From a virus: a stretch of DNA of 48,626 nt. Location of the stretch: the IMG/VR virus record IMGVR_UViG_3300020192_000016, positions 1-48,626 of that record; one strand, 5' to 3'. A model generated the notes under the pieces. It was not told the DNA's origin. It worked only from the letters and a program-made list of their open reading frames with translations, and did no database searches. The position numbers were made by a program, and so were the translations under genes. Below are positions 20,708 to 48,090 of this stretch, in pieces. Positions within the stretch are counted from its first letter, which is position 1. Every line of letters starts with the position of its first letter.

Positions 20708-23700
20708 CTGTTATTCCTTTTAACTTCTCTTATTTGTCTTTGTCTTAAACGCTTATCTTGTCTTTTTTCTTGCTTAGAAGTTGTGTAGTCTAGGTCTAAG
20801 ATTAATCCCTTTCCAATTACAGATAAAGGGATTCCCGTCACTATTGTTAAAGTATTCATCAACGCAGTAACTTGCCTAGTGGTCATGTCAACCCCTTCAG
20901 CTTTTTTCTTAGTCGCAGTCACGGTTGTACTTAAATCTTTTACCTGGTCAAATACTGGACTTATTCCGGCCCTATCAAAAAACAAAGGAGCAATTAATGG
21001 CCGAGCGTAAAAGGGTATTGAGTTACCGATAAGAGTAGAACCCATCTCTATTGCAAGAGCTTTATTTTGCTTTTCTTGGAATTTAACTGAATCTTTTTTC
21101 TTTTCCTCTTCCTCTTCAGAAGTGTTGAGCTTAACTTGTGAAATTAGCCACGCCCCTATGGCCGGGAAGATACTCACATACATTGCCAGCTTAATCATCG
21201 ATGTTGCCCGATTTCTTGCCTTGTTATCTCTGTATGCTTCTTCGTGCATAAGATTACCCATAGCAATCTCAATCGTACTAATTGCTGTAAACGCTTTCCA
21301 GATTTCGTTTCCATTACCCTTAAGGTTTGATTGAGCACTAATCGCAGAAGACCCCTGAGTCCTTTTAACTGTATCGTCTGCATAAGCTATTGCCTGTGCT
21401 TCAGTAGAATCATTATCTAAAGAGTAGTTATATGCCGCAACCCATATAGGAACGCTCACTGCATTTTGAAATGCTTGAATTGCAAAAACTGCAAACCCTA
21501 AAGATTTATCCGACGTAAGTGTTAACCAATCCCAATGCAGATCTAATTGCTCAAAGGATTTGAAAGTGTTTTTCATCCCTTGACCTAACTCCGATCTCAT
21601 TACCGTTGATTTCTCCATTACCATTTCAGTAGTTTGTTTTGGGGACGCTCCATGCTGCCCGATAGCCAGGAGCATATTTGTTTTCCCTGTGAAAGGAATC
21701 GCAGGAGAAAAACCTAGAAACTGTTTCCCCCACACGTTAGGGTTAAGAAAAAATAACTTAATTGTTACGCCTTTTCTTATATGCCTCATAACCGTATTTG
21801 CAGAATCAACTCCAGAAGATTCGGTACGCCTTTGTAGTTTAATCCTATCAAACCATGGAGCTAATTGATTTTCCATAGACAATGGCCGTTTCTCTTCCAG
21901 CATAGAGCTAACCTGCTCAGACCCAAGTACCTTACCAAAGTCCGTCAACGCTTCTTTGATAAACGCCACGTTTGCTACACTGCCAAGAATTCCCATTATT
22001 TTATTAATATTCAAGTCAACAGGTTTGTATTTCTTAGATCGGCTATTAGCGAATCCAGTATCCATGTTTGGGAATAAATCGATGGAAGGGTAGTTATCAC
22101 TGTCTGGATTGAGTATAGAAGATATTCCCTCCGATGCGACAAAATCCTTTATGCTTCTTAGTGGGACATATCCACCCTCATAGTCACCCCAAGGAGTTTT
22201 AACTTTTCGCCCCTCGATGTATCCAACGTTTCTTCCGTCTACTTTTCTTAGCGTTTCTTTTGCTATTGGGTGTATCTCTTTAAATGCGTCCCATATAGTT
22301 TGGATAGCATCCATAAGCTCTTTAGTAATATCCCCAGAAGCTATTCGAGAATTGAAAAACTCTTGCCATTTACTCTCATCGAGTATTCCGGTATCAGGAT
22401 TTACGGCCCCCCAATCATTACCTAAAACTAGATGTCTTGCTCCTGAGTCACTTCCCATGTGAAGTATTGCCATTATCTCTTCACCTTGATTTGTGAAGGT
22501 ATAGTTAAGCCCTGGTGCAATGATAGGCCTTAGATCTGAAATGAACGACTGGATTATTGGTATAGTTCTCAAAGGAGATAAAATGCTTTTTAGTATAGAG
22601 TTTTTACTTGCTGCTTTTGTGAATGCATTTTGTATTATATTTATGTTCTTATTCATGAATATAGACCGCTCGGCTTCACCGTTTACAACCCTATTGTAAA
22701 CATACCCCAACATCGATTTATTGAACTCTAATGGGTTTTCAAACATAGAACCGAAAACCGTTCTTACGTCTGCGATATCCCTTAAGATTTCTCCTGTTAG
22801 GTTATCCCCTGCAGCGAATGTTAGGGGTGTGCTCCCAGACATCTCCTGAACTACTAAACTATTTGCTACTTCTATCTGAATTACTTTCCCATTAACTTCA
22901 ATCTCTTTTGCCTTCTTTGCTGCAAAGGCAATTGAATCTAGGATTTGTCCAAACTGTATAGACGAAGCAACATTTATTTTATCTCCAAGATTTCCTAAAC
23001 TCTGCCTAACAAATGCATCTATAGAACTGTTAATCATTTTTATGTGAGACTCTGGCAAAGCACTGTGGTCACTACTAAAGTTATCTCGGTCCATTGGTTC
23101 AATTGAATTCTGATTCGTAGCTACACTAATAATTAACTTCACTCCGAATTCTATAGCATCAACGTCTAGCTTATTTTTAAGAGCAGAAAGGTTATTAAGA
23201 CTTTTCTTAAACCACTTCATTCTAACTCTTGTTTTTGCCAATTTCTTCTGTGCCTCTTGAGCATTCTTATAAGCAAAGAAACTTACTGCTTCGGCCCTCT
23301 TTGCCTCAAATGCTCCGATTATATCGCCCTTGCCAAATAGGACAGATGCCTCTCTGCCGTGACGGATTGAATCCCCAAGAAACTTATTTGACGTAAACTT
23401 TTTACTAGGAGAATTTTCTACTACTAGATTTGCCTCTTCTATAATCGCAGGTTTTGACAGCCTAGCAATTAATGCCGCTGGAAGTATTGCTCTAGCCGAT
23501 AGCTTTCTAAGAGTTCCTAAGTGTAAATCAGCTAGTATCCTCATCTCTTCCAGAAGAAGCTTTTCTTTGCCATTACTATTGACTGCATCCACCGCTATCT
23601 GATGGATCTCTTCATCAGACTTCATGATAGGAAACTTCTCCTCGATTAGTGCATTCAACTTAGCTTGAATCATATTTCCGCGAGCACCTGCATCAAGCAT

Positions 23701-26700
23701 CATGTCTAAAAGAATTTGCTTATTAGATATGCCAAGCTGAAGTAGGACTACACTGACATCTAGTCCACCTTTCTTTTTACCTGTAATTAAATGCTGTGGT
23801 ATACGGGTTTTTAGTTCATCGGCAAAAGCAGCGTCCCCATTGGAAAACTCTCTTGCAAAAGATTCATAACTAATACGAGGATCTCCGCCCGTACTTCCGG
23901 CGTCCCTGAATTCCTTATAAGCATTTGCAAACTGGTCAGACATAACCATCGAAGGTAAACCAGAAATCTCTCTCGTTGCCTCTTCTAGTAATTGATTTTT
24001 CTGAGCATCAATTTGTGCCTCTCGCTCTTTAAGAGTTTTATTAAATGACTTTGTATACGCCTCTCCAATTGCTTGCGATCGGACATCTGCAAGCATGCCC
24101 ATATACTTAGGGCCATCTGGTCCTAGCTGTTTGGCATCGAATAACGGCTCTGTAAACATAGGAATAACTTCAGACTCAACCTTGCTTGAAACTCCAAGTA
24201 TTGCCTCAAACATTCTTTCAATCTCAGGAGATATTTCTACTCCCTGAAACTTTTTAATTCGAAGTATGTTTTCCGCAAATTCAGTTATCCAGTTACGAAA
24301 AGATTCCATAAGAGCTTTGACTTTATTGTTTTCAAATTTACCCTCAAGGAAATACTTCTCCGATGTACTAGCGAAACCCTCTTGAATCCTCGTAGCATCT
24401 TCAAGGGAAAGTAATTGTAGCTCTTGAATATTGTTAAGGCCAAAAGCTTCAGCGGCAATAACCATCGCAGCTTTGTACTCCGCTTGAGATGTAGTCAGCT
24501 TATCTTCAGGGATTGAAAATATGTATGCCGCATCCTCCGACATTTCCTGCAACCACGAATGTCCAAACTCATGAACTAGTGTCTTAACTGTTGCGTCTTT
24601 TGTAAGAGCAATAATATTTGGGTCCATTGCCGTAGGCCCAGTGGTGAAAGCTCCACCTTTACCTGGGGACACTGCACCCAACACTTTTATTCTCAGTGCT
24701 ACATCTTTAATTGGAAGCCCGAGAACCTCCGCTCTTACCTGTAAATGCCTGAATTGAAGATCGGCGAATATAACTAATGATTCAGGATTTACCTGAGAGC
24801 CCTTTGTGAATTTTCTTAAGTTAAAAAGTAGGCTGTTATAAACCTGCTTTTCATCCTGTGACCTAAATCTACTAACAAGTTCTACAGGTCTAGATATTGC
24901 ATTGTCGCCTGCTTCTATTGGAGTAATCATGGGGATTAAATCCGCAGAATCAATACTTACTGTATCGCCCTCTTTCCTAGGAACTCCTGGGATAGGTGAA
25001 GGTAACTCACCAGTTTCCTCGAAGAATGTTTTAGAAACTTCGATGTCACTATCTTTAAATACTACAAAGTTATACTTATTAGATTTTCCACCCTCTGCTT
25101 TATACTTTACCCCTTTTATCCCAAGATCATAAAGAAGCTTAGAAACTGCATCAGGACTACCTTCAGACTTTTCTAGTGATTTATAAAAAGTTTCTCCAGA
25201 CACATTTTGTTTTATTAAAAAAGAAAGCTTACCTTGTACATAGGGGTCTTGCTCATTTAATGGTAAACCCCAGTCAAGCATTTGCTCTTTTACTGCATTT
25301 ATCTTAACTTCAAATAACTGTCCCTCATTTTTTGGGATTACGGGGATTTGTGACTCTTCAATATAGTCCGTTATTATTTTCTTTGCTTCATCAGGTAGGT
25401 TTATTTCACTGTCATATTCCAAATTAGTAGGGTCTTTAATTTCAGTAAGTAATATTCTGGGTTCCCACATCGCGTATAACAACTCTGCAATTACATTTAC
25501 TAATGTGTAATCGCTTTTAAACTCTTCAAAGTCAAAAAGCAGAGTGGCATTGTTTTCCATGTAACTAAACGTATTTTCATATATAGCTTCTACGACTTCT
25601 GGATTACCACTTAACTGCTTTTCCAATTTTCTTGAAACTTCAAGTATAGTATAAAGGTTTACCGTTTTTCCCCTTTCGGAATCTAATTCTTTAGTTAACA
25701 TTCTTCTGTAGTAATCTGCAATGCCCTTATCTTCGGAGAAATAAAGCCCATGCCCAAATGCTTGATTACCCTCTCCTGTACCTATGCCCGATTTTTCAAA
25801 CTTATCAAATTTATGTTTAGTTCCGTGAAATGCAGTTTCCTCGAAGAATGTAAACGGGTCCTTCTGAATAGCATTATAAAGGTCTTCCCCTTCATTACCA
25901 CTTAGCTCATTACCATTGACTCGGGCAATCCCATCAACCTTCTTATCGCCTTCAGTGAATCTTAGCCACTCGCCAATTGAAATGTTCACCGATGTATTAC
26001 TTTCTCTATTCGCCTGGTACTCCCCAAGCTTCTCAGACCCAAAGCTACTCATTGCTACAGAAGGGTCGATATTTTTATTTAAGAAGTACTCGTCCCATTC
26101 CTTAGGAGATACAGAAACAATTCCGTTATTAGCTTCTTTTTCAAGCCTAACCGCTTCAACTTCTGCTGCCACGCTAAGACTGTCCGTAACCGTTCCTTCA
26201 GGTTCTACTACCCCACCGTTAATAACGGTATCTACAAGGTCCTGTGACTGCTGAGGGTTATCCGTAGATGCCTTAGAAGATTCTTTTGCCTCTCTTAACT
26301 CTGTTAGATTCAAGTGAGCTTGATTTGCTTTATTAGCTTCTTCGGCCCTAGCTACCGTTTTGTCTACGCCCCTCTTGAATATTTGGGAGCCTATACGAAT
26401 CCCGGCCGCAACAGGTGCAGTACCTAAAGTAGTTACCCCAGCAAAAACCCCTTCAGTCGTTGACTCCACGGCATTTACCGCAACAGCATTTCGGGTCAAT
26501 TCCCCTACTAAAGCATCTGCTGCATTCCTACCAAGAAAGTCTGCTCCTGCTTCTGAAACACCTTGAATTAAAACTTCTTTTCCAAGTCCAGTTACAACTC
26601 CACCAGCTTTCTTAATTACACCTTTCTTAGCTGCCATTACAACTGAGACGGGTTTAACCATGAACTTACCAAGAAGAGGAGTAGTTACAAAATCAGCACC

Positions 26701-39878: not shown

Positions 39879-41441
39879 CTATGATCTGTAATTAGGCGAT
39901 GGCCTAAAGTTTTTGTCAAGGTGTGATTGATCCGTCACGTAAGAATTTAGTTGACTTCCCCGATCTTGCCACTCATTCACTACCTCATCATAAGACTTTT
40001 CACGTCCATCAGATGCCTTTCCTTGCACCGAATAGTTACCATAAAAACTTGGCTGCTCTACATCAGCAAAGGTCTGCGCAAGCGCATCTGCTTTATCTGG
40101 TGATCTTCCAAGCCGAGCTTTAATCTGCTCTTTTTCTTCAAGCCTAAAAATTCCACCATGGAAGATTAATTTAGGCATCATGAGTTCCTCAGCAAGCCCA
40201 GGATCGTTCGGGAGGCAACCCCCCTTCTTGACCCAATCTCTAAGTCTAACCCACATCTCGGTTCTTTTGTTAAAGTAACGAGAGTCTTGAGCTTTAGCAT
40301 TATAAATAACTGGAGTCACCTCTAGATGAGGAAATAATGCCAACGAGTCTATTACTGATGAACCATACCCACCCGTATTATCGACGAAGATTCTTTCTAT
40401 TCCTTCTTCCTGTTGCATAAAAGCAATCTTTCCGGCCATCTCTGGGCCATAAACATCGGAACTCATGGCCGTAATAGGGTAAGCTTTAAGCCCCCTACGC
40501 TTCGCCAAAGCACTCCTGTCAATACCACCACGAGCTACATCAACCCCTAGGCGGCATTGACTATTTGAAACCGTACGCTCTTCAATTTGACGGTTCATCG
40601 ATTCATGAATTTCTGGGTCAGATAAAAGAGTATTCGACGCTTGAGCAGGATACCTACCAAATACGTTTACTTGCACCCAAGGATCGTCTTTACCATAGGT
40701 AAGTATTTGCTCCCTTGCCCAGGTAACGGATACTCTCGGCGCTCTCCTAGGATCGTCTGGATCTCCTGAGATATGATATATGCCCCACTTCTGTAATGTT
40801 CGCCCCACCGATGCTCTATATAGGACCCCTTGAGGTCTTTCAGGATTTGCCATCGCTAGAATCTTTGCACACTTAGTATCTGAATCACCCGTCGATAATG
40901 CCGCATCTGCTGTTGCAAAAATTGAATCTGGAATCATCCCTGCTTCGTCCAGTCCGAACATAACGTTATCTGCGTGAAGCCCTGCAAGTGCAGATGCCAT
41001 TTGAGTTTCATCTGCTTGTTTTGGAAATGACCTTGCATCTATGAATGAATAACCTTCATGACCTTTAAGTGTTATTTTCTCCATACCTTCATTTGTTGAT
41101 TTCACCATGAGCTCCGACATTGCCCGCAATCGAAGTAGCTCCGCCCATAAGTTTGATTTTAAATGCTCTTTAGTAATCGAGAGCACTGCGATTTTTGGCT
41201 GGTGGCGTGTCGCAAAGAAGTGAAGTAGTAGTGTGGCCTGAACAAAAGTTTTCCCAGGTCCCTTCGAGGCAATAACACCAATGCGCTGATTCGACACATA
41301 GAGGTCAACCACATCCTCTTGCCAAGCATCGAGGGTTATATCAAATGCATCCTTCATAAATATCTTAGGTCGATGCCGCCATAACTTAAGTACATGTGAA
41401 GGCTGCAACTCTAAAGGTTTGTGAATTATGTTTAATGTCAT
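39879..41441 (-). CDS. terL: Terminase large subunit
   Basis: 520-residue packaging motor. The ATPase carries Walker A SKGPGKT (59-65) and Walker B FGLDEA with Asp165-Glu166. The RNase H-like nuclease carries Asp301 (GVDVARGG), Asp354 (IFVDNTGGYG) and Asp452 (SPDKADAL). All key residues are present. The ATG overlaps the terS stop (ATGA). With the nuclease intact it should cut concatemers; a headful or cohesive-end mode cannot be told from sequence. Confidence 0.95.
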   Translation of the reverse strand: MTLNIIHKPLELQPSHVLKLWRHRPKIFMKDAFDITLDAWQEDVVDLYVSNQRIGVIASKGPGKTFVQATLLLHFFATRHQPKIAVLSITKEHLKSNLWAELLRLRAMSELMVKSTNEGMEKITLKGHEGYSFIDARSFPKQADETQMASALAGLHADNVMFGLDEAGMIPDSIFATADAALSTGDSDTKCAKILAMANPERPQGVLYRASVGRTLQKWGIYHISGDPDDPRRAPRVSVTWAREQILTYGKDDPWVQVNVFGRYPAQASNTLLSDPEIHESMNRQIEERTVSNSQCRLGVDVARGGIDRSALAKRRGLKAYPITAMSSDVYGPEMAGKIAFMQQEEGIERIFVDNTGGYGSSVIDSLALFPHLEVTPVIYNAKAQDSRYFNKRTEMWVRLRDWVKKGGCLPNDPGLAEELMMPKLIFHGGIFRLEEKEQIKARLGRSPDKADALAQTFADVEQPSFYGNYSVQGKASDGREKSYDEVVNEWQDRGSQLNSYVTDQSHLDKNFRPSPNYRS

Positions 41442-42022
41442 ATTAAGTAGTCCATACCCTCAATCGGAGTGTAATGCGGTGTCTCGGCGCAGTCTGATTC
41501 CGAAGGGTTAAGCTCAATAACAGGCACCTGCTTCTTATCCTTAAGCAAATAGTATTCCGCCTCGATATCCTCGATCGTTCTACCGTCATCGATGTAGGAT
41601 TTCTTAATAAGGTCCGTCACAGTTACCTGCGCAGTTATATCTATTTTGTCTATGAAATCAGCTTCAGATTTACCCAGCAACTCCGATGCCTTCAAACGAG
41701 TCGGCAAAGGAATGTTAGGCGACATCTTGATAGGGACATTATTAGAATCAACCTCTTCTTTTTGGTAACGGTCTTCATTCCTCATAATATCTGACCAAAG
41801 CTTCTGACGCTCCTCACGGGATGCGATCGTAGTCTTCAATGCATTGATATAGCGGGAACGCTCCCTAATCGCCTCGACAATCAGAGGCTCATTCATAAGC
41901 CCATTGCCCTTATAGGTGAGGTAATTGTCCGCGCCCGAATACCCCGCAATCCTCATAGCAGAAGGAAGATCCCCATCATACGCCTCCACAAACAACCTAT
42001 GGGCCTTACTAAGCTTATTCAT
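41438..42022 (-). CDS. terS: Terminase small subunit
   Basis: 194-residue protein. An N-terminal helix-turn-helix region (SKAHRLFVEAYDGDLPSAMRIAGY at about 4-27, written here in two overlapping parts) is typical of small terminases that recognise the packaging site. A long helical middle and an acidic C-terminus follow. The ATG at 42022 is preferred over the longer in-frame start, because it overlaps the csrA stop by eight bases and removes 25 residues that read through csrA codons. Confidence 0.85.
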   Translation of the reverse strand: MNKLSKAHRLFVEAYDGDLPSAMRIAGYSGADNYLTYKGNGLMNEPLIVEAIRERSRYINALKTTIASREERQKLWSDIMRNEDRYQKEEVDSNNVPIKMSPNIPLPTRLKASELLGKSEADFIDKIDITAQVTVTDLIKKSYIDDGRTIEDIEAEYYLLKDKKQVPVIELNPSESDCAETPHYTPIEGMDYLI

Positions 42023-42215
42023 AATCGTGGATCGTTTTGTTATGTGTTGTAGGGGAGTAAATCTCGCCCCTTCGAATAATAAAATCCTTCGGCGCATCGA
42101 TTCCTATAGTGCACTTGTTGGAAGCCTGGATCTTAGTCACCGTAATACGAATAACTTTATTGTCAGGGGTAGTTATGTAAATTTCTTCTTGGGGCCTTCG
42201 AGTAAATGCTAGCAT
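42015..42215 (-). CDS. csrA: CsrA-family RNA-binding translational regulator
   Basis: 66-residue protein aligning along its length with CsrA/RsmA. It starts MLAFTRR (bacterial MLxLTRR), has IGIDAPKD (bacterial IGxNAPK) and ends the core with IRRGEIY, keeping the Arg equivalent to RNA-contacting Arg44. CsrA dimers bind GGA motifs in mRNA leaders and block or stabilise translation. It is the first gene of the leftward late block and its end overlaps terS. A double ATG is present; the second is preferred because GAGG is better spaced. Likely role: remodelling host metabolism or timing phage translation. Confidence 0.9.
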   Translation of the reverse strand: MLAFTRRPQEEIYITTPDNKVIRITVTKIQASNKCTIGIDAPKDFIIRRGEIYSPTTHNKTIHDYE

Positions 42216-42246
42216 CATGCCTCAGTGGTTTTAGGTGAAGTAGTTT

Positions 42247-42276: not shown

Positions 42277-42420
42277 GGTAGTTATGACGTGCGGAGATAT
42301 AACCGTGGTGGACTCCGATGGAATGGCAGTTCAAGCTCAGGACGAGCGCCACCACACCAATTATTTAGGTAATCACACCCTCGACTTTTATATCTTTATT
42401 TCGGTAATTCCTTTTGTGAG

Positions 42421-42565
42421 ATTCTGCCCATTTATTACAATAAGCCTCTTAGGGGACTCTGCCCATTTATTACAATAAGCCTCTTGGAGAACTCCAAAAA
42501 CTTTGTGGGATTCTGCCCAATTATTACAATAAGCCTCTCTGTGAACTTCAAAAACTTTGTGGGGG
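42421..42565. repeat. Three tandem boxes upstream of the late block
   Basis: TTCTGCCCA-TTATTACAATAAGCCTCT-like boxes lie at 42422, 42458 and 42511. The last two are each followed by GAACTNCAAAAACTTTGTGGG, making a 53-bp unit. Box spacing is 36 and 53 bases. They sit upstream of the csrA promoter in DNA with no gene. They look like repeated protein-binding sites controlling late transcription or a nearby origin. Confidence 0.75.
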
Positions 42566-42614
42566 GGTGGGTATACCAGCCAACGCCGGCCGCCAAAAGG
42601 GGGACCCCACCCCC
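42563..42614. promoter_or_regulatory. GC-rich inverted repeat
   Basis: GGGGGTGGG (42563-42571) is perfectly complementary to CCCACCCCC (42606-42614). The 34-base loop contains a CCGGC/GCCGG-like core. The all-GC stem is striking in an AT-richer genome. It could be a replication-fork barrier, an ssDNA initiation structure, or an RNA hairpin shielding the low-complexity arrays from transcription. Confidence 0.55.
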
Positions 42615-42636
42615 TCTGAGCACGAAGTCTTGTTGC

Positions 42637-42925
42637 TCATAGCCTTCACGCCCTGATAGCCTTCACGCCCTGATAGCCTTCACGCCCTGATAGCCTCATA
42701 GCCTCATAGCCTCATAGCCATGCCATGCCGTGCTCATAGGCTCATAGCCATCACGCCCTGATAGCCTGATAGCCTTCACGCCCTGATAGCCTCATAGCCA
42801 TCACGCCCTTCACGTGCTCATAGCCTCATAGCCTCATAGCCATCACGCCCTTCACGCCCTGATAGCCTCATAGCCTCATAGCCATCACGCCCTCATAGCC
42901 TCATAGTCTCATAGCCATGCCGTGG
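42637..42925. repeat. C-rich low-complexity array (left arm)
   Basis: Irregular tandem array of CATAGCCT-type 9-mers and the 17-mer GATAGCCTTCACGCCCT, with interruptions such as CATGCCGTG. The plus strand is strongly C-rich and G-poor. No open frame is credible. Its reverse complement resembles the G-rich array at 43031-43180 (CTATGAGGCT is the complement of AGCCTCATAG), so the two could pair as a large imperfect hairpin. Confidence 0.85.
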
Positions 42926-43030
42926 TGTATGCCTTAAATCGTCACGCTTTGCCGCCTAGGTGCCACTTTCACCCCCATGCCGCTACCCTCATAGCCATCG
43001 ACGGTATAAAGCTCACCTCGGAGAGTTTAG

Positions 43031-43180
43031 AGGCTTAGAGGCTTGGTGGCTGGTGGCTATGAGGCTTGGTGGCTGGTGGCTATGAGGCTTGGTGGCTGGT
43101 GGCTTGGTGGCTTGGTGGCACTGAGGTGCTGAGGTGCTGAGGGGCTTGGTGGCTTGGTGGCTTGGTGGCTTGGAGAGTTA
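43031..43180. repeat. G-rich low-complexity array (right arm)
   Basis: Tandem units of GGCTTGGTG (9 bp) and the 23-mer formed by GGCTTGGTGGCTGG plus TGGCTATGA, followed by GAGGTGCT copies. The plus strand is G-rich and nearly C-free compared with the left arm, so strand skew flips in the about 100 bases between the arrays (42926-43030). No gene is seen in this 560-base stretch. Confidence 0.85.
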
Positions 43181-43200: not shown

Positions 43201-43419
43201 TCAAATATTAATAAGTAAATCTCTAAAATCGATAAATTCAATATGACCACTTTTTGTATAATTCGCTGAAACTTCATATTCAATATTGCTACTATTATCT
43301 AAATCGCGCTCGTTGATCTCACTTATCAACGCATCAATGCGCCACTCCTTTTTAAGAACAACATTCGCTCGATCAGTTAATATTTTTATATTGCTTTCGT
43401 TTAATTCTAGAACTTTCAT
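43201..43419 (-). CDS. Hypothetical small protein
   Basis: 72-residue protein of unknown function, second gene of a two-gene leftward operon; its ATG lies one base after the upstream stop. A Leu/Ile/Asn/Glu-rich, probably alpha/beta composition. No motif recognised. Located between the G-rich array and a good promoter, so it is likely expressed early. Confidence 0.7.
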   Translation of the reverse strand: MKVLELNESNIKILTDRANVVLKKEWRIDALISEINERDLDNSSNIEYEVSANYTKSGHIEFIDFRDLLINI

Positions 43420-43420
43420 T

Positions 43421-43687
43421 TTAATTCTTTAATTCTTGTATTAAGAGTCTCAAGCAAGCTTCTTTGCCGAATTTTCGAAAAGATTTTTCATTACTATCTC
43501 GACACAACCCCTCGTCGTAACCGCCGTTTTCAGTGATTTTTTTAGTTAACTTTCCTTTTTTTCCTTGATTTAAGCAAAGTTGCAAATAGTATGTTTCTTC
43601 GTAAAATTTAAATTCCATCCAGAAAAATCCGCTGTCAATCTCTTTTTTAATTATTTCTATTTCTAGTTTTATAAATGTATTTTTCAT
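43421..43687 (-). CDS. Hypothetical small protein
   Basis: 88-residue protein of unknown function, first gene of the leftward pair. AAGGAA precedes the ATG. The N-terminal half has alternating hydrophobic and charged residues (beta-strand-like, with WMEFKFYEETYYL), and the C-terminus is a basic helix with three Cys overall. A strong promoter lies 34 bases upstream. Its position in the control region suggests an early regulator or anti-host factor, by inference only. Confidence 0.75.
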   Translation of the reverse strand: MKNTFIKLEIEIIKKEIDSGFFWMEFKFYEETYYLQLCLNQGKKGKLTKKITENGGYDEGLCRDSNEKSFRKFGKEACLRLLIQELKN

Positions 43688-43720
43688 TTTAATTCCTTAA
43701 GTTTGAAGTGCCTATGCGTT

Positions 43721-43749
43721 ACAATACTACAATAACTAAACACTGTCAA
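43721..43749 (-). promoter_or_regulatory. Sigma-70 promoter with duplicated operator-like element
   Basis: On the minus strand TTGACA (43749-43744) and TATTGT (43726-43721) are 17 bases apart. A 13-base element TA(C/T)TGTAGTATTG occurs twice with 26-base spacing, overlapping the -35 and -10 regions, and looks like a pair of repressor sites. It would drive the genes at 43687 and 43419. Confidence 0.7.
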
Positions 43750-44009: not shown

Positions 44010-44100
44010 TTTCTATTATACCTATCTATTACTCTATATATACTTAATAATAATAGTAATAATAAGAGGTTATAGGATAGAAGTATAATAAAGAACAGCT
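44010..44100. other. AT-rich block with inverted repeat
   Basis: About 90 bases almost entirely A and T. An imperfect inverted repeat (TTATAC-C-TATC facing GATAG-AA-GTATAA) flanks runs of TAATAATAG. It resembles a DNA-unwinding element and lies beside repeated ATTCGC sites, the usual makeup of an iteron-type origin. No gene is supported over 43,760-44,398; a basic leftward frame at 43752-44009 has no ribosome-binding site. Confidence 0.5.
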
Positions 44101-44398: not shown

Positions 44399-45250
44399 AT
44401 GAGCATAATGAAGAGTAAAAACAGTTCGGTATCAAGACGTATCTTAAGTGCAATATATCGATTCGCAGGACTATCTCTCGAGCAGTTCGAATCCAAGTAC
44501 GGCAAAATTAAGGTTGGTGAAGCAGAGAAAGAAAGAGTACAGAAAATCGGTTACAGGGTTTATCAATGTCCACGAGTTGCGCAATCTAAAGAAAGAAGAC
44601 AATCAGTCTTTGTCTCAATCGCTATGAGTTCACTCACCTTTGATGAGTATGAAAGTCTCACTAAAATATGCTTCCCCCCGATTTATCACATTAAAAAGTC
44701 GAGGGTGTACGATTTATACTCGGGGTCGGTTCACATGACAATTCTCGAAGCAAGAATTCTTGCAATGACTTCAAAGCTTAACTATGAAACTTTCACAGTT
44801 TTGGATGTGCCAAGACATAAGAACAATGCAATGGCCAGGCTTCCCAATTTTCGCGGGCATTGGCAGTACACAATACCGAGAGGGCGAGGGAATAGAAGCA
44901 TTGCGTATGGTGATAATGCCCGACTTTATAATAGCGTAAAGGATAAGAGCTTATTCGAGATAATACACCTAGGGATGCTTATATCTATGCCGCCCACTAT
45001 TAATCCAGCCCTTGCATTACTACCCACGACCATGCCTATGATTGAGCTTTCCGAATCTGAGCTACTCCAGCGTCGACTAGCGTTTTGGGAAGCACGTAAA
45101 GAGCTTATATCGCTCTTTGAAGCAACAATCAGGCAGCGCACGGATATAATCGTCGTCGATGATGATATGTATGATGATTTAGACTTCGACGCTTTAGACT
45201 TTTATGATCTTGGCGGCATTGACCCCGGTGATATTGATTCTCTAGTATAA
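44399..45250 (+). CDS. Hypothetical protein with highly acidic tail
   Basis: 283-residue protein of unknown function. A basic N-terminal region of about 75 residues (many Lys, Arg) contains an AGLSLEQFESKYG segment that could be part of a DNA-binding helix-turn-helix. A central domain has Trp, Arg and His (FRGHWQYTIPRGRGNRSIAYG), and the C-terminal 35 residues are mostly Asp. Basic DNA-binding head plus acidic tail beside palindromic sites suggests a regulator or replication initiator; that is inference. The start is uncertain: another ATG is nine bases downstream and neither has a good ribosome-binding site. Confidence 0.75.
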   Translation: MSIMKSKNSSVSRRILSAIYRFAGLSLEQFESKYGKIKVGEAEKERVQKIGYRVYQCPRVAQSKERRQSVFVSIAMSSLTFDEYESLTKICFPPIYHIKKSRVYDLYSGSVHMTILEARILAMTSKLNYETFTVLDVPRHKNNAMARLPNFRGHWQYTIPRGRGNRSIAYGDNARLYNSVKDKSLFEIIHLGMLISMPPTINPALALLPTTMPMIELSESELLQRRLAFWEARKELISLFEATIRQRTDIIVVDDDMYDDLDFDALDFYDLGGIDPGDIDSLV

Positions 45251-45345: not shown

Positions 45346-46299
45346 ATGAAAAAAGAAGAATTAAAACTAATACTAGATAACCACGCACTTTGGGTGTCAA
45401 ACAATTCGAAGGGCATGAAAGCTGATTTAACTCATGCTGATTTAACTCAAGCTGATTTATCAAATGCTAATTTAAGTCGCGCTGATTTATCAAATGCTAA
45501 TTTATATAATGCTGATTTATCAAATGCTAATTTATATAATGCTGATTTATCAAATGCTAATTTACGTCATGCTGATTTATCAAATGCTGATTTATCAAAT
45601 GCTGATTTATCAAATGCTAATTTAACTCATGCTAATTTACGTCATGCTGATTTATCAAATGCTAATTTACGTCATGCTGATTTATCAAATGCTGATTTAA
45701 CTCATGCTAATTTACGTCATGCTGATTTAACTCATGCTAATTTACGTCATGCTGATTTATCAAATGCTGATTTACGTGATGCTGATTTATCAAATGCTGA
45801 TTTATCAAATGCTGATTTAACTCATGCTAATTTAAGTCGCGCTGATTTATCAAAAGCTGATTTATCAAATGCTGATTTATATGAAGCTGATTTCACTTCG
45901 ACGCTCTTGAGACTAAGTAACTTACGATTTGCGAATAACTTACTTACAATAAAAAGTTTACCGGCCGCAAAAAGAGAGTTGTTTGAAAAGCTTGGCGCAT
46001 TTAAAAATGAAGCTCAAGGACTATATAAAGCAGCTGTTGGCGGAAAGATCGACGGTTCAGCATATGAGGGCGACTGTGCTTGTTTTGTTGGCACTATTGC
46101 AAACTTGTTGGATCAAAATTACAAAGAGCTAGAAAACTTGAAACATGATGATGAGTCACTCATTGAGCGTCTTTTTTCAGCTGTTACTACGGGCGATACA
46201 CCAACGAATAACCCAATATCGAAGATTGTACAAGATTGGTTGATTGAATTTATGGGCATATACGACATCGAAGTTCCAACTTTAAATTGGAGTAAATAG
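45346..46299 (+). CDS. Pentapeptide-repeat protein with C-terminal domain
   Basis: 317-residue protein. After a short head (EELKLILDNHALWV, common in phage members), residues about 25-185 are some 32 pentapeptides of the A(D/N)LxN type, predicted to form a right-handed square beta-helix. The last about 120 residues are a different domain with GKIDGSAYEGDCACFVGTIA, seen in other pentapeptide proteins. Some family members (Qnr, MfpA) mimic DNA and bind gyrase; whether this one does is unknown. GAGGGG precedes the ATG. Nearly every unit uses the same codons. Confidence 0.9.
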   Translation: MKKEELKLILDNHALWVSNNSKGMKADLTHADLTQADLSNANLSRADLSNANLYNADLSNANLYNADLSNANLRHADLSNADLSNADLSNANLTHANLRHADLSNANLRHADLSNADLTHANLRHADLTHANLRHADLSNADLRDADLSNADLSNADLTHANLSRADLSKADLSNADLYEADFTSTLLRLSNLRFANNLLTIKSLPAAKRELFEKLGAFKNEAQGLYKAAVGGKIDGSAYEGDCACFVGTIANLLDQNYKELENLKHDDESLIERLFSAVTTGDTPTNNPISKIVQDWLIEFMGIYDIEVPTLNWSK

Positions 46300-46301
46300 C
46301 C

Positions 46302-46829
46302 ATGACTAAAGAAGAATTAAAAAAGATCTTGGATAGCCATAAGCTCTGGCTATCCGACGGCATGAAGGGCAAGAAAGCTGATTTATCATATGCTAATTTA
46401 CATAATGCTGATTTACATAATGCTAATTTACGTGATGCTGATTTACATAATGCTAATTTACGTGATGCTGATTTAAGTCGAGCTAATTTACACTTCGCTA
46501 ATTTACGCTACGCTGATTTAAGTTTCGCTGATTTACGTTTCGCTGATTTACGTTTAGCTGATTTACATAATGCTAATTTACGTGATGCTGATTTAAGTCG
46601 AGCTAATTTACGCTACGCTAATTTACGTCATGCTGATTTATCAAATGCTGATTTAACTCATGCTGATTTAACTCATGCTGATTTATCAAATGCTAATTTA
46701 CGTCATGCTGATTTATCAAATGCTAATTTACGTGAATCTGATTTACGTGCCACGAATTTACTTCACGTTAATTTACATGAAGTTAAAAGGTCACTAGATG
46801 ATACGGAAATGAATGAAGGTAGGAACTAA
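46302..46829 (+). CDS. Pentapeptide-repeat protein
   Basis: 175-residue protein, second of three tandem pentapeptide genes, starting two bases after the first gene. It has the same head (EELKKILDSHKLWLSDG) and about 25 pentapeptides, then a short tail (ATNLLHVNLHEVKRSLDD). The head and the last 99 bases are nearly identical to the third gene, marking a recent duplication with only the repeat interior diverging. There is no C-terminal domain as in the first gene. Confidence 0.9.
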   Translation: MTKEELKKILDSHKLWLSDGMKGKKADLSYANLHNADLHNANLRDADLHNANLRDADLSRANLHFANLRYADLSFADLRFADLRLADLHNANLRDADLSRANLRYANLRHADLSNADLTHADLTHADLSNANLRHADLSNANLRESDLRATNLLHVNLHEVKRSLDDTEMNEGRN

Positions 46830-46832
46830 GTC

Positions 46833-47270
46833 ATGAAAAAAGAAGAATTAAAAAAGATCTTGGATAGCCATAAGCTCTGGCTATCCGACGGCATGAAGGG
46901 CAAGAAAGCTGATTTATCATATGCTAATTTGAGTAACGCTGATTTGAGTAACGCTGATTTGAGTCATGTTAATTTATATGAAGCTAATTTACGTGAAGCT
47001 AATTTACGTGATGCTAATTTATATGATGCTGATTTACGTGAAGCTGATTTACGTTACGCTGATTTACGTTACGCGGATTTATCATACGCTGATTTACGTG
47101 AAGCTGATTTACGTCACGCTAATTTACGTTACGCTGATTTATCATACGCTAATTTAACTTACGCTGATTTACGTGAATCTGATTTACGTGCCACGAATTT
47201 ACTTCACGCTAATTTACATGAAGTTAAAAGGTCACTAGATGATACGGAAACGAATGAAGGTAGGAACTAA
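46833..47270 (+). CDS. Pentapeptide-repeat protein
   Basis: 145-residue paralogue of the preceding gene, with about 20 pentapeptides. The head is the same as in the second gene, and the tail differs by only two bases in 99. The interior units use more Tyr, Glu and Arg (LREAD, LRYAD) than the first gene. Its stop overlaps the ATG of the coiled-coil gene (TAATG). The variable interior between constant ends suggests shuffling of repeat units between copies. Confidence 0.9.
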   Translation: MKKEELKKILDSHKLWLSDGMKGKKADLSYANLSNADLSNADLSHVNLYEANLREANLRDANLYDADLREADLRYADLRYADLSYADLREADLRHANLRYADLSYANLTYADLRESDLRATNLLHANLHEVKRSLDDTETNEGRN

Positions 47271-47682: not shown

Positions 47683-48090
47683 ATGGCCTTAGAAACAATG
47701 AAAAATGTTACACAAATTAATGGCGAAAAAATTGTTTGTATGGATGACTTAAGAATACAATTTCCCGAGAAATTTAATGAATTGGGTTCTATGGACTATA
47801 AGTGGTTTGAAAAAGAAATTAGGCCACATAACTTTATTTATGTCCGCCATGATGTTAATTCCCTTTCATTTACAATCCAAAACGGGCCTATAAAAGAAGT
47901 TGGGAAGAACGGTTGTCAAGTTGAAGATGTCATAGCGGTAGCTAAACACATTATAGAGCAGTTAAATGAAAAGTTTCCATGCAGAGAAAACTCAATGATT
48001 ATTACAAAGCTTGATGAGGCCGTAATGTGGTCAAAGAAAAGGACACTAGATAGACAAAATAGGTCTTTTGAAGGATTAATTACGAACTAG
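47683..48090 (+). CDS. Acb2/Tad1-like cyclic-nucleotide sponge (anti-CBASS/anti-Thoeris candidate)
   Basis: 135-residue protein. From residue 64 to the end it matches by eye the phage proteins sharing the Acb2/Tad1 hairpin domain: IQNGPIKEVGKNGC (65-78), FPCRENS (98-104), TKLDEAVMW (108-116) and KRTLDRQNRSFEG (119-131). Known members bind signalling nucleotides made by CBASS or Thoeris immunity and so block defence. The first 60 residues (MDDLRIQFPEKFNELGSMDY region) are an extra N-terminal part not recognised. It lies next to other likely anti-host genes. The family is fairly sure; the ligand is unknown. Confidence 0.75.
   Translation: MALETMKNVTQINGEKIVCMDDLRIQFPEKFNELGSMDYKWFEKEIRPHNFIYVRHDVNSLSFTIQNGPIKEVGKNGCQVEDVIAVAKHIIEQLNEKFPCRENSMIITKLDEAVMWSKKRTLDRQNRSFEGLITN

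Follow-up and report, generated by a model that had tools for sequence, protein, structure and literature searches.

A conserved element upstream of terS, a candidate packaging site, lies beside hypervariable tandem arrays in an uncultivated podovirus-like phage

The window, that is, the whole 48,626-nucleotide stretch of DNA that we analyzed, was a circularly assembled phage genome whose ends overlapped exactly over 127 bp, as expected from assembly with k=127. The phage is uncultivated and podovirus-like, and its capsid (PF20911) and connector (PF12236) placed it near the BPP-1/BcepC6B podovirus type. The closest terminase match among 50,697 phage records was 40% identical, TerS had no close match, and no close phage record was found. 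Host identity or a host-derived repeat was considered and rejected; a terL scan of GTDB contigs yielded only 28-46% identical stretches and no host. The genes fell into two modules. The leftward module contained the capsid, portal, terL, and terS genes and a csrA homologue. The rightward module, which ran from 44399 across the assembly joint to 11600, encoded pentapeptide-repeat proteins, a helicase, an exonuclease, an SSB-like protein, a DNA polymerase, and a PrimPol-VapE replication protein with VapE-like and Prim-Pol domains. The features around the non-coding stretch that separated the late and early modules were as follows.

39879-41441, minus strand: terL, terminase large subunit (PHROG 2, E=1e-24)
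41438-42025, minus strand: terS, terminase small subunit (PHROG 51, E=1.4e-11, using the longer ORF reading 41438-42097)
42015-42218, minus strand: CsrA homologue directly upstream of terS (Pfam PF02599, 50.3 bits, cut-off 27)
42418-42563, minus strand: imperfect direct repeat in three copies, spaced 35/54 bp and carrying the near-palindrome TTATTACAATAA, toward terS from the core (TRF/repeat search)
42540-42632, minus strand: clade-specific conserved core, candidate pac site (leave-one-out profile E=8.5e-11; alignment of 16 relatives)
42637-42920, plus strand: C-rich array (TRF and repeat search; 8/17/25-bp units; GC skew -0.41)
43020-43026, minus strand: ACTCTCC box (GGAGAGT on the plus strand), left edge of the G-rich array (motif search)
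43024-43176, plus strand: G-rich array (TRF and repeat search; 8/23-bp units; GC skew +0.59)
43172-43178, minus strand: ACTCTCC box (GGAGAGT on the plus strand), right edge of the G-rich array (motif search)
43201-43419, minus strand: small leftward ORF, 72 aa, no homologue found
43421-43687, minus strand: small leftward ORF, 88 aa, directly upstream of the 72-aa ORF (ORF call)
43641-43700, no strand: AT-richest 60 bp of the genome (87%), overlapping the 5' end of the 88-aa ORF
43721-43749, minus strand: sigma-70-like promoter TTGACA-17-TATTGT ahead of both small leftward ORFs (10/12 matches, consensus match only)
44399-45250, plus strand: first rightward gene, 283 aa (ORF call)

The sequence-only reading had described opposed C-rich and G-rich arrays at this locus, and our repeat searches recovered both at nearly the same coordinates. 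The C-rich array started with 3.4 exact copies of ATAGCCTTCACGCCCTG, which were followed by CATAGCCT and ATCACGCCCT words, and the G-rich array was built of GGCTTGGT and GGCTGGTGGCTATGA words. Among 150-bp windows of the genome, those of the G-rich array had the highest skew, and those of the C-rich array were among the lowest. The arrays had also been called rough reverse complements of each other. This resemblance exceeded chance, as the best ungapped reverse-complement match scored 25, whereas 100 Markov shuffles averaged 9.6 and never exceeded 18 (the direct-orientation match scored 7), but it was partial and rested mainly on one shared TGGCTATGAGGCT/AGCCTCATAGCCA word. A cruciform between the arrays was not indicated, since the folded strand fell just 1.9 sd short of the level of 20 dinucleotide shuffles, none of which was as low, and a search for known RNAs or tRNAs found none. 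An assembly artefact was rejected as unlikely because the longest exact repeat in the region was 44 bp, versus the k=127 suggested by the end overlap, and because separately assembled relatives carried arrays at the same place. The array pair was a real and unusual element of the control region, with the late genes running leftward on one side and the early genes running rightward on the other.

A flip in GC skew at the arrays had been said to coincide with the divergence of leftward and rightward transcription. This did not hold. Because the two small leftward ORFs and the promoter-like site lay to the right of the arrays, the divergence point, if the ORFs are real, was at about 43.75-44.4 kb, which is 0.6-1.4 kb to the right of the arrays. 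Neither small ORF had homologues in the fetched loci, and both may be specific to this phage. The expected cumulative-skew minimum near 43.0 kb was present at 43019, between the arrays, but it was made locally by the arrays; when they were masked, the minimum shifted to 43755, where the curve was flat between 43 and 46 kb. A bidirectional origin should place the minimum at the site and the maximum at the antipode, independent of gene orientation, and an origin at 43 kb would switch the skew near 18.8 kb. The maximum was instead at 11.8 kb, where rightward and leftward genes converged, and the skew between 11.8 and 18.8 kb was -0.07, the same sign as that of its leftward genes. In the relatives described below, the minimum varied in position, lying at most 0.4 kb before and 3.8 kb past the conserved core. 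Given the displaced maximum and the variable minimum, the skew therefore tracked transcription and provided no argument for an origin.

Several other features of the rightward module were recorded. At 45346-47270 (plus strand), three genes in a row encoded pentapeptide-repeat proteins and contained long tandem repeats of 15 bp in their coding sequence; the first of these proteins had no homologue in the fetched loci. The 135-aa protein encoded at 47683-48090 (plus strand) matched the Acb2/Tad1 hairpin domain weakly, at a score under the cut-off (E=7e-5), and is a possible anti-CBASS protein. A second repeat-rich non-coding stretch, from 48493 across the assembly joint to 595, contained about five copies of TTCATGATTGCAATAATTAAAGYTGGGTTTGA at a spacing of roughly 100-190 bp, separated by TTCACG/GTCACG/TTCATG hexamer satellites; the TTCACG word was common to this stretch and the C-rich array.

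Relatives were found by scanning with TerL and with alignments of TerS and PrimPol, and all of them were metagenome contigs. About 20 distinct related phages, whose TerS proteins were 40-62% identical, shared the same non-coding region, which contained a conserved core, inverted ACTCTCC boxes, an AT-rich peak, and, in about half of them, tandem arrays. The comparison of the arrays among related phages, which the sequence-only reading had proposed, placed the arrays at the same position, but their sequences were unrelated. The units were TGACATCA and CTGTGCTGCCTGTG in G004, CAATGCCACCACGTCCA in G005, TGAGACAC in G012, and GCACACCAC in G015, and several relatives had no arrays or only weak ones. 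Of the 31 tandem arrays called in 7 genomes at our TRF thresholds, on which the calls depend, 11 fell within the surroundings of the core, which make up 3.3% of the DNA (P=2e-9); this test was prompted by the window, and 9 of the 11 clustered arrays belonged to other genomes. The array units shared no sequence although the PrimPol proteins were 43-56% identical. Because the sequences were unconserved and several relatives had no arrays, the arrays are, judged by this comparison, not conserved initiator sites. In the examined stretches of CP2, BPP-1, and Vibrio, Microcystis, and Nostoc phages, we found no comparable non-coding array beside terS.

The most conserved part of the region was the core. 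Its consensus in the terS-forward direction, about 65 bp and G/C-rich, was CCCCCTTTT-N18-TATACCCACCCC-G-nnn-AAATTTT, and the strict motif in the window was at 42564-42605, where it read GGGGTGGGTATAC-N-AAAAGGGGG on the plus strand. Each genome had a single core, which preceded terS by 200-580 bp and always had the same orientation. In leave-one-out profile searches, the window core (E=8.5e-11) was the sole significant match in its genome, and the cores of five of the six other genomes were detected at 2.5e-5 to 8e-14; the divergent G008 copy scored 0.05, and no other significant match was found in these genomes. Three core-pattern scans of 2.9 million viral contigs gave matches restricted to contigs of the TerS clade. 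The core was absent in the more distant TerS homologues L111-L124 and in the examined stretches of CP2, BPP-1, and Vibrio, Microcystis, and Nostoc phages, and it was not recognizable in L103 and L016, although these two had boxes. In the alignment, the most diverged cores (L105, L108, and L180) were anchored by hand, and the second half-motif was barely recognizable in L100 and L102. The sequences used for the counts were also those in which the array positions, the boxes, and the core motif had originally been spotted; only the leave-one-out profile test and the count of arrays outside the window were partly independent. The core is a newly recognized DNA element, known only from this phage group.

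Wherever a record was long enough, TerS, TerL, and PrimPol were found together, and no genome separated them. Because the three were inherited together, linkage did not assign the core to TerS over the replication protein. In L062 / G015 (22843-24031), terL was split, and residues 10-64 and 69-520 matched about 1 kb apart, as with an intron or an inserted gene. The csrA gene was present also in G004 and G005 and was not found in G012, G015, G007, or G008. Bcep22-like podoviruses carry a CsrA as a moron gene, and in JC1 it was possibly virion-associated (PMC9144972). A CsrA-RNA link was dropped because csrA was not found in relatives that keep the core and boxes.

The ACTCTCC boxes were enriched in the region upstream of terS, with 36 observed versus 2.5 expected by chance, and they were present in 1-4 copies. 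In all 12 genomes that had both box orientations, the far box was plus and the near box was minus (terS-forward). The window had two plus boxes (terS-forward) that bracketed the G-rich array, and G004 had no boxes in the region. In L110 (G015), an inverted repeat 503-527 bp upstream of terS, CGACTCTCCGCGC / GCGCGGAGAGTCG, consisted of two ACTCTCC boxes. The AT-richest 60 bp of the genome were within the region in six of seven genomes, and in the remaining one the peak of the region ranked fifth; the second-ranked AT-rich peak in the window (83%) was at 44036-44095. An AT-rich element beside repeats is expected of an iteron-type origin, but the pattern could equally stem from promoters, given the size of the intergenic region.

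These features bear on the proposal that the region is a replication origin, at which the PrimPol-VapE protein or an early protein would bind the boxes or array units and melt the AT-rich peak to the right, so that bidirectional replication would start at the early/late boundary. The position of the AT-rich peak, the consistent inversion of the boxes, and the VapE-like and Prim-Pol domains of the replication protein are consistent with this proposal, as is the skew minimum in three genomes (the window, G004, and G008), where it lay inside the region or close by. In G005, G012, and G015, by contrast, the minimum was 1.7-3.8 kb from the core, and the skew obeyed gene orientation. As candidates for the conserved initiator-binding repeats of an iteron-type origin, the boxes were enriched and oriented but few and were missing from G004, and the array units had no common sequence and were lacking in some genomes. 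A search for homologues of the 283-aa first rightward protein, sought for co-variation with the arrays as an array-specific initiator, found none. The possible origin suggested by the sequence-only reading was thus not established, since the skew flip was due to the arrays and gene orientation and the array sequences were unconserved; we consider an origin here unlikely, though worth keeping in view.

The core, as a single element shortly upstream of terS, fits packaging better. The TerS alignment profile matched the SF6 TerS structure 3zqp (E=1.7e-8, profile positions 3-132), so a TerS of the SPP1/SF6 family is encoded beside the core. Each genome had a single conserved non-coding site at terS, weak in G008 and not recognizable in L103 and L016. 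On the terS side of the core, we observed 2-4 direct repeats with AT-rich near-palindromes (TTATTACAATAA, TACTATAATATAT, and TTATTTGAATAA) whose unit sequences were unrelated; in relatives, these repeats were 173-74 bp upstream of terS in L097 and at about 2518-2636 in L180. L096 and L097, which were 99.3-99.9% identical, were nevertheless one repeat copy apart. The pac sites of SPP1 and SF6 are located at promoters and the start of terS and contain direct repeats, and boxA of SPP1 is replaced in SF6 by a different repeat pair. SF6 TerS is able to substitute for SPP1 TerS, and the DNA-binding domain of SF6 TerS binds without sequence specificity (PMC4737164, PMC6316719). Because the SPP1 and SF6 repeats partly differ although SF6 TerS can replace that of SPP1, and because the SF6 domain binds unspecifically, differing repeats at one position are compatible with a pac region. 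Because the SPP1/SF6 pattern of a conserved site with unconserved repeats recurs here, a pac-type site was the best-supported reading of the core. We therefore favor, tentatively and with confidence a little short of even, a core that serves as a pac-type packaging-initiation site and arrays that are hypervariable, dispensable tandem repeats beside it. Some observations did not fit this reading well. The core does not overlap the start of terS as in SPP1, being up to 0.58 kb away, and in the window, G004, and G005 csrA intervenes; none of the contigs was found to end at the core; and the most AT-rich DNA of the genome and the inverted boxes share the region, which fits an origin too.

The spacing of the core half-motifs raised the idea of a late promoter for the csrA-terS-terL operon, recognized by the host polymerase and a phage factor, with the terS-side repeats as operators and the arrays as spacer DNA. 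CCCCCTTTT and TATACC were 18-19 bp apart, which is near the -35/-10 spacing, and they were always upstream of terS and faced it. However, CCCCCTTTT was unlike a sigma-70 -35 box, the second half-motif ran on into a conserved C-run, the flanking DNA was G/C-rich, and no such late factor was identified, so a late promoter seems improbable. A cos site with fixed cohesive ends was also considered, as the core is a single conserved site upstream of terS, the position of cos in the lambda-type order, and its middle was often G/C-rich with short palindromes. The relatives did not share a dyad center (best z about 2.5 in 320 tests, in which a weak dyad could be missed), and no clade contig began or ended at the core, although assemblies need not preserve ends. 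For these two reasons, cos was the less likely reading of the core, and the SPP1/SF6-like TerS suggests, but does not prove, pac; we give a cos site very little credence.

If the core is a pac-type site, a ring-shaped SPP1/SF6-like TerS would bind or wrap the non-coding DNA around it, possibly using the boxes and repeats as wrapping or secondary sites. The initial cut by TerL would fall in the core or close to it, and packaging of concatemeric DNA would proceed toward terS. The arrays would arise via slippage or recombination in the non-coding DNA beside the packaging site and would turn over quickly, with no conserved sequence. We infer the packaging role of the core, headful (pac) over cos packaging, and the origin and dispensability of the arrays from sequence comparisons. 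It is also conceivable, but quite improbable in our judgment, that the region is a combined control region in which the packaging site, the inverted ACTCTCC boxes, and the origin-like AT-rich tract are coupled and the arrays form a sequence-independent scaffold for TerS wrapping or replication-fork control, with their position but not their sequence under selection. The core represents a compact candidate packaging site, with a possible origin nearby, for a phage clade without a close isolate. If the arrays are needed in position but not in sequence, this would bear on how low-specificity SPP1-type TerS rings find pac.

Three known systems provide points of comparison. Like a lambda-type cos region, the locus has a conserved site and repeated elements upstream of terS, but it showed no common dyad and no fixed ends, and its arrays lie beyond the core as seen from terS. 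Like oriL and oriR of SPP1, which have direct repeats and an AT-rich unwinding element (PMC6316719), the locus combines repeated boxes with a strong AT-rich peak within a single non-coding region, but its box is short and in 1-4 copies, its array units are unconserved, and the initiator is putative. It differs from the SPP1/SF6 pac sites in that csrA can separate the site from terS and in the much greater length and variability of its arrays, and cutting at the core is a prediction. The likeness to pac lies in a single site near and upstream of terS, in flanking direct repeats that differ among relatives (PMC4737164), and in a TerS that belongs to the same family by profile.
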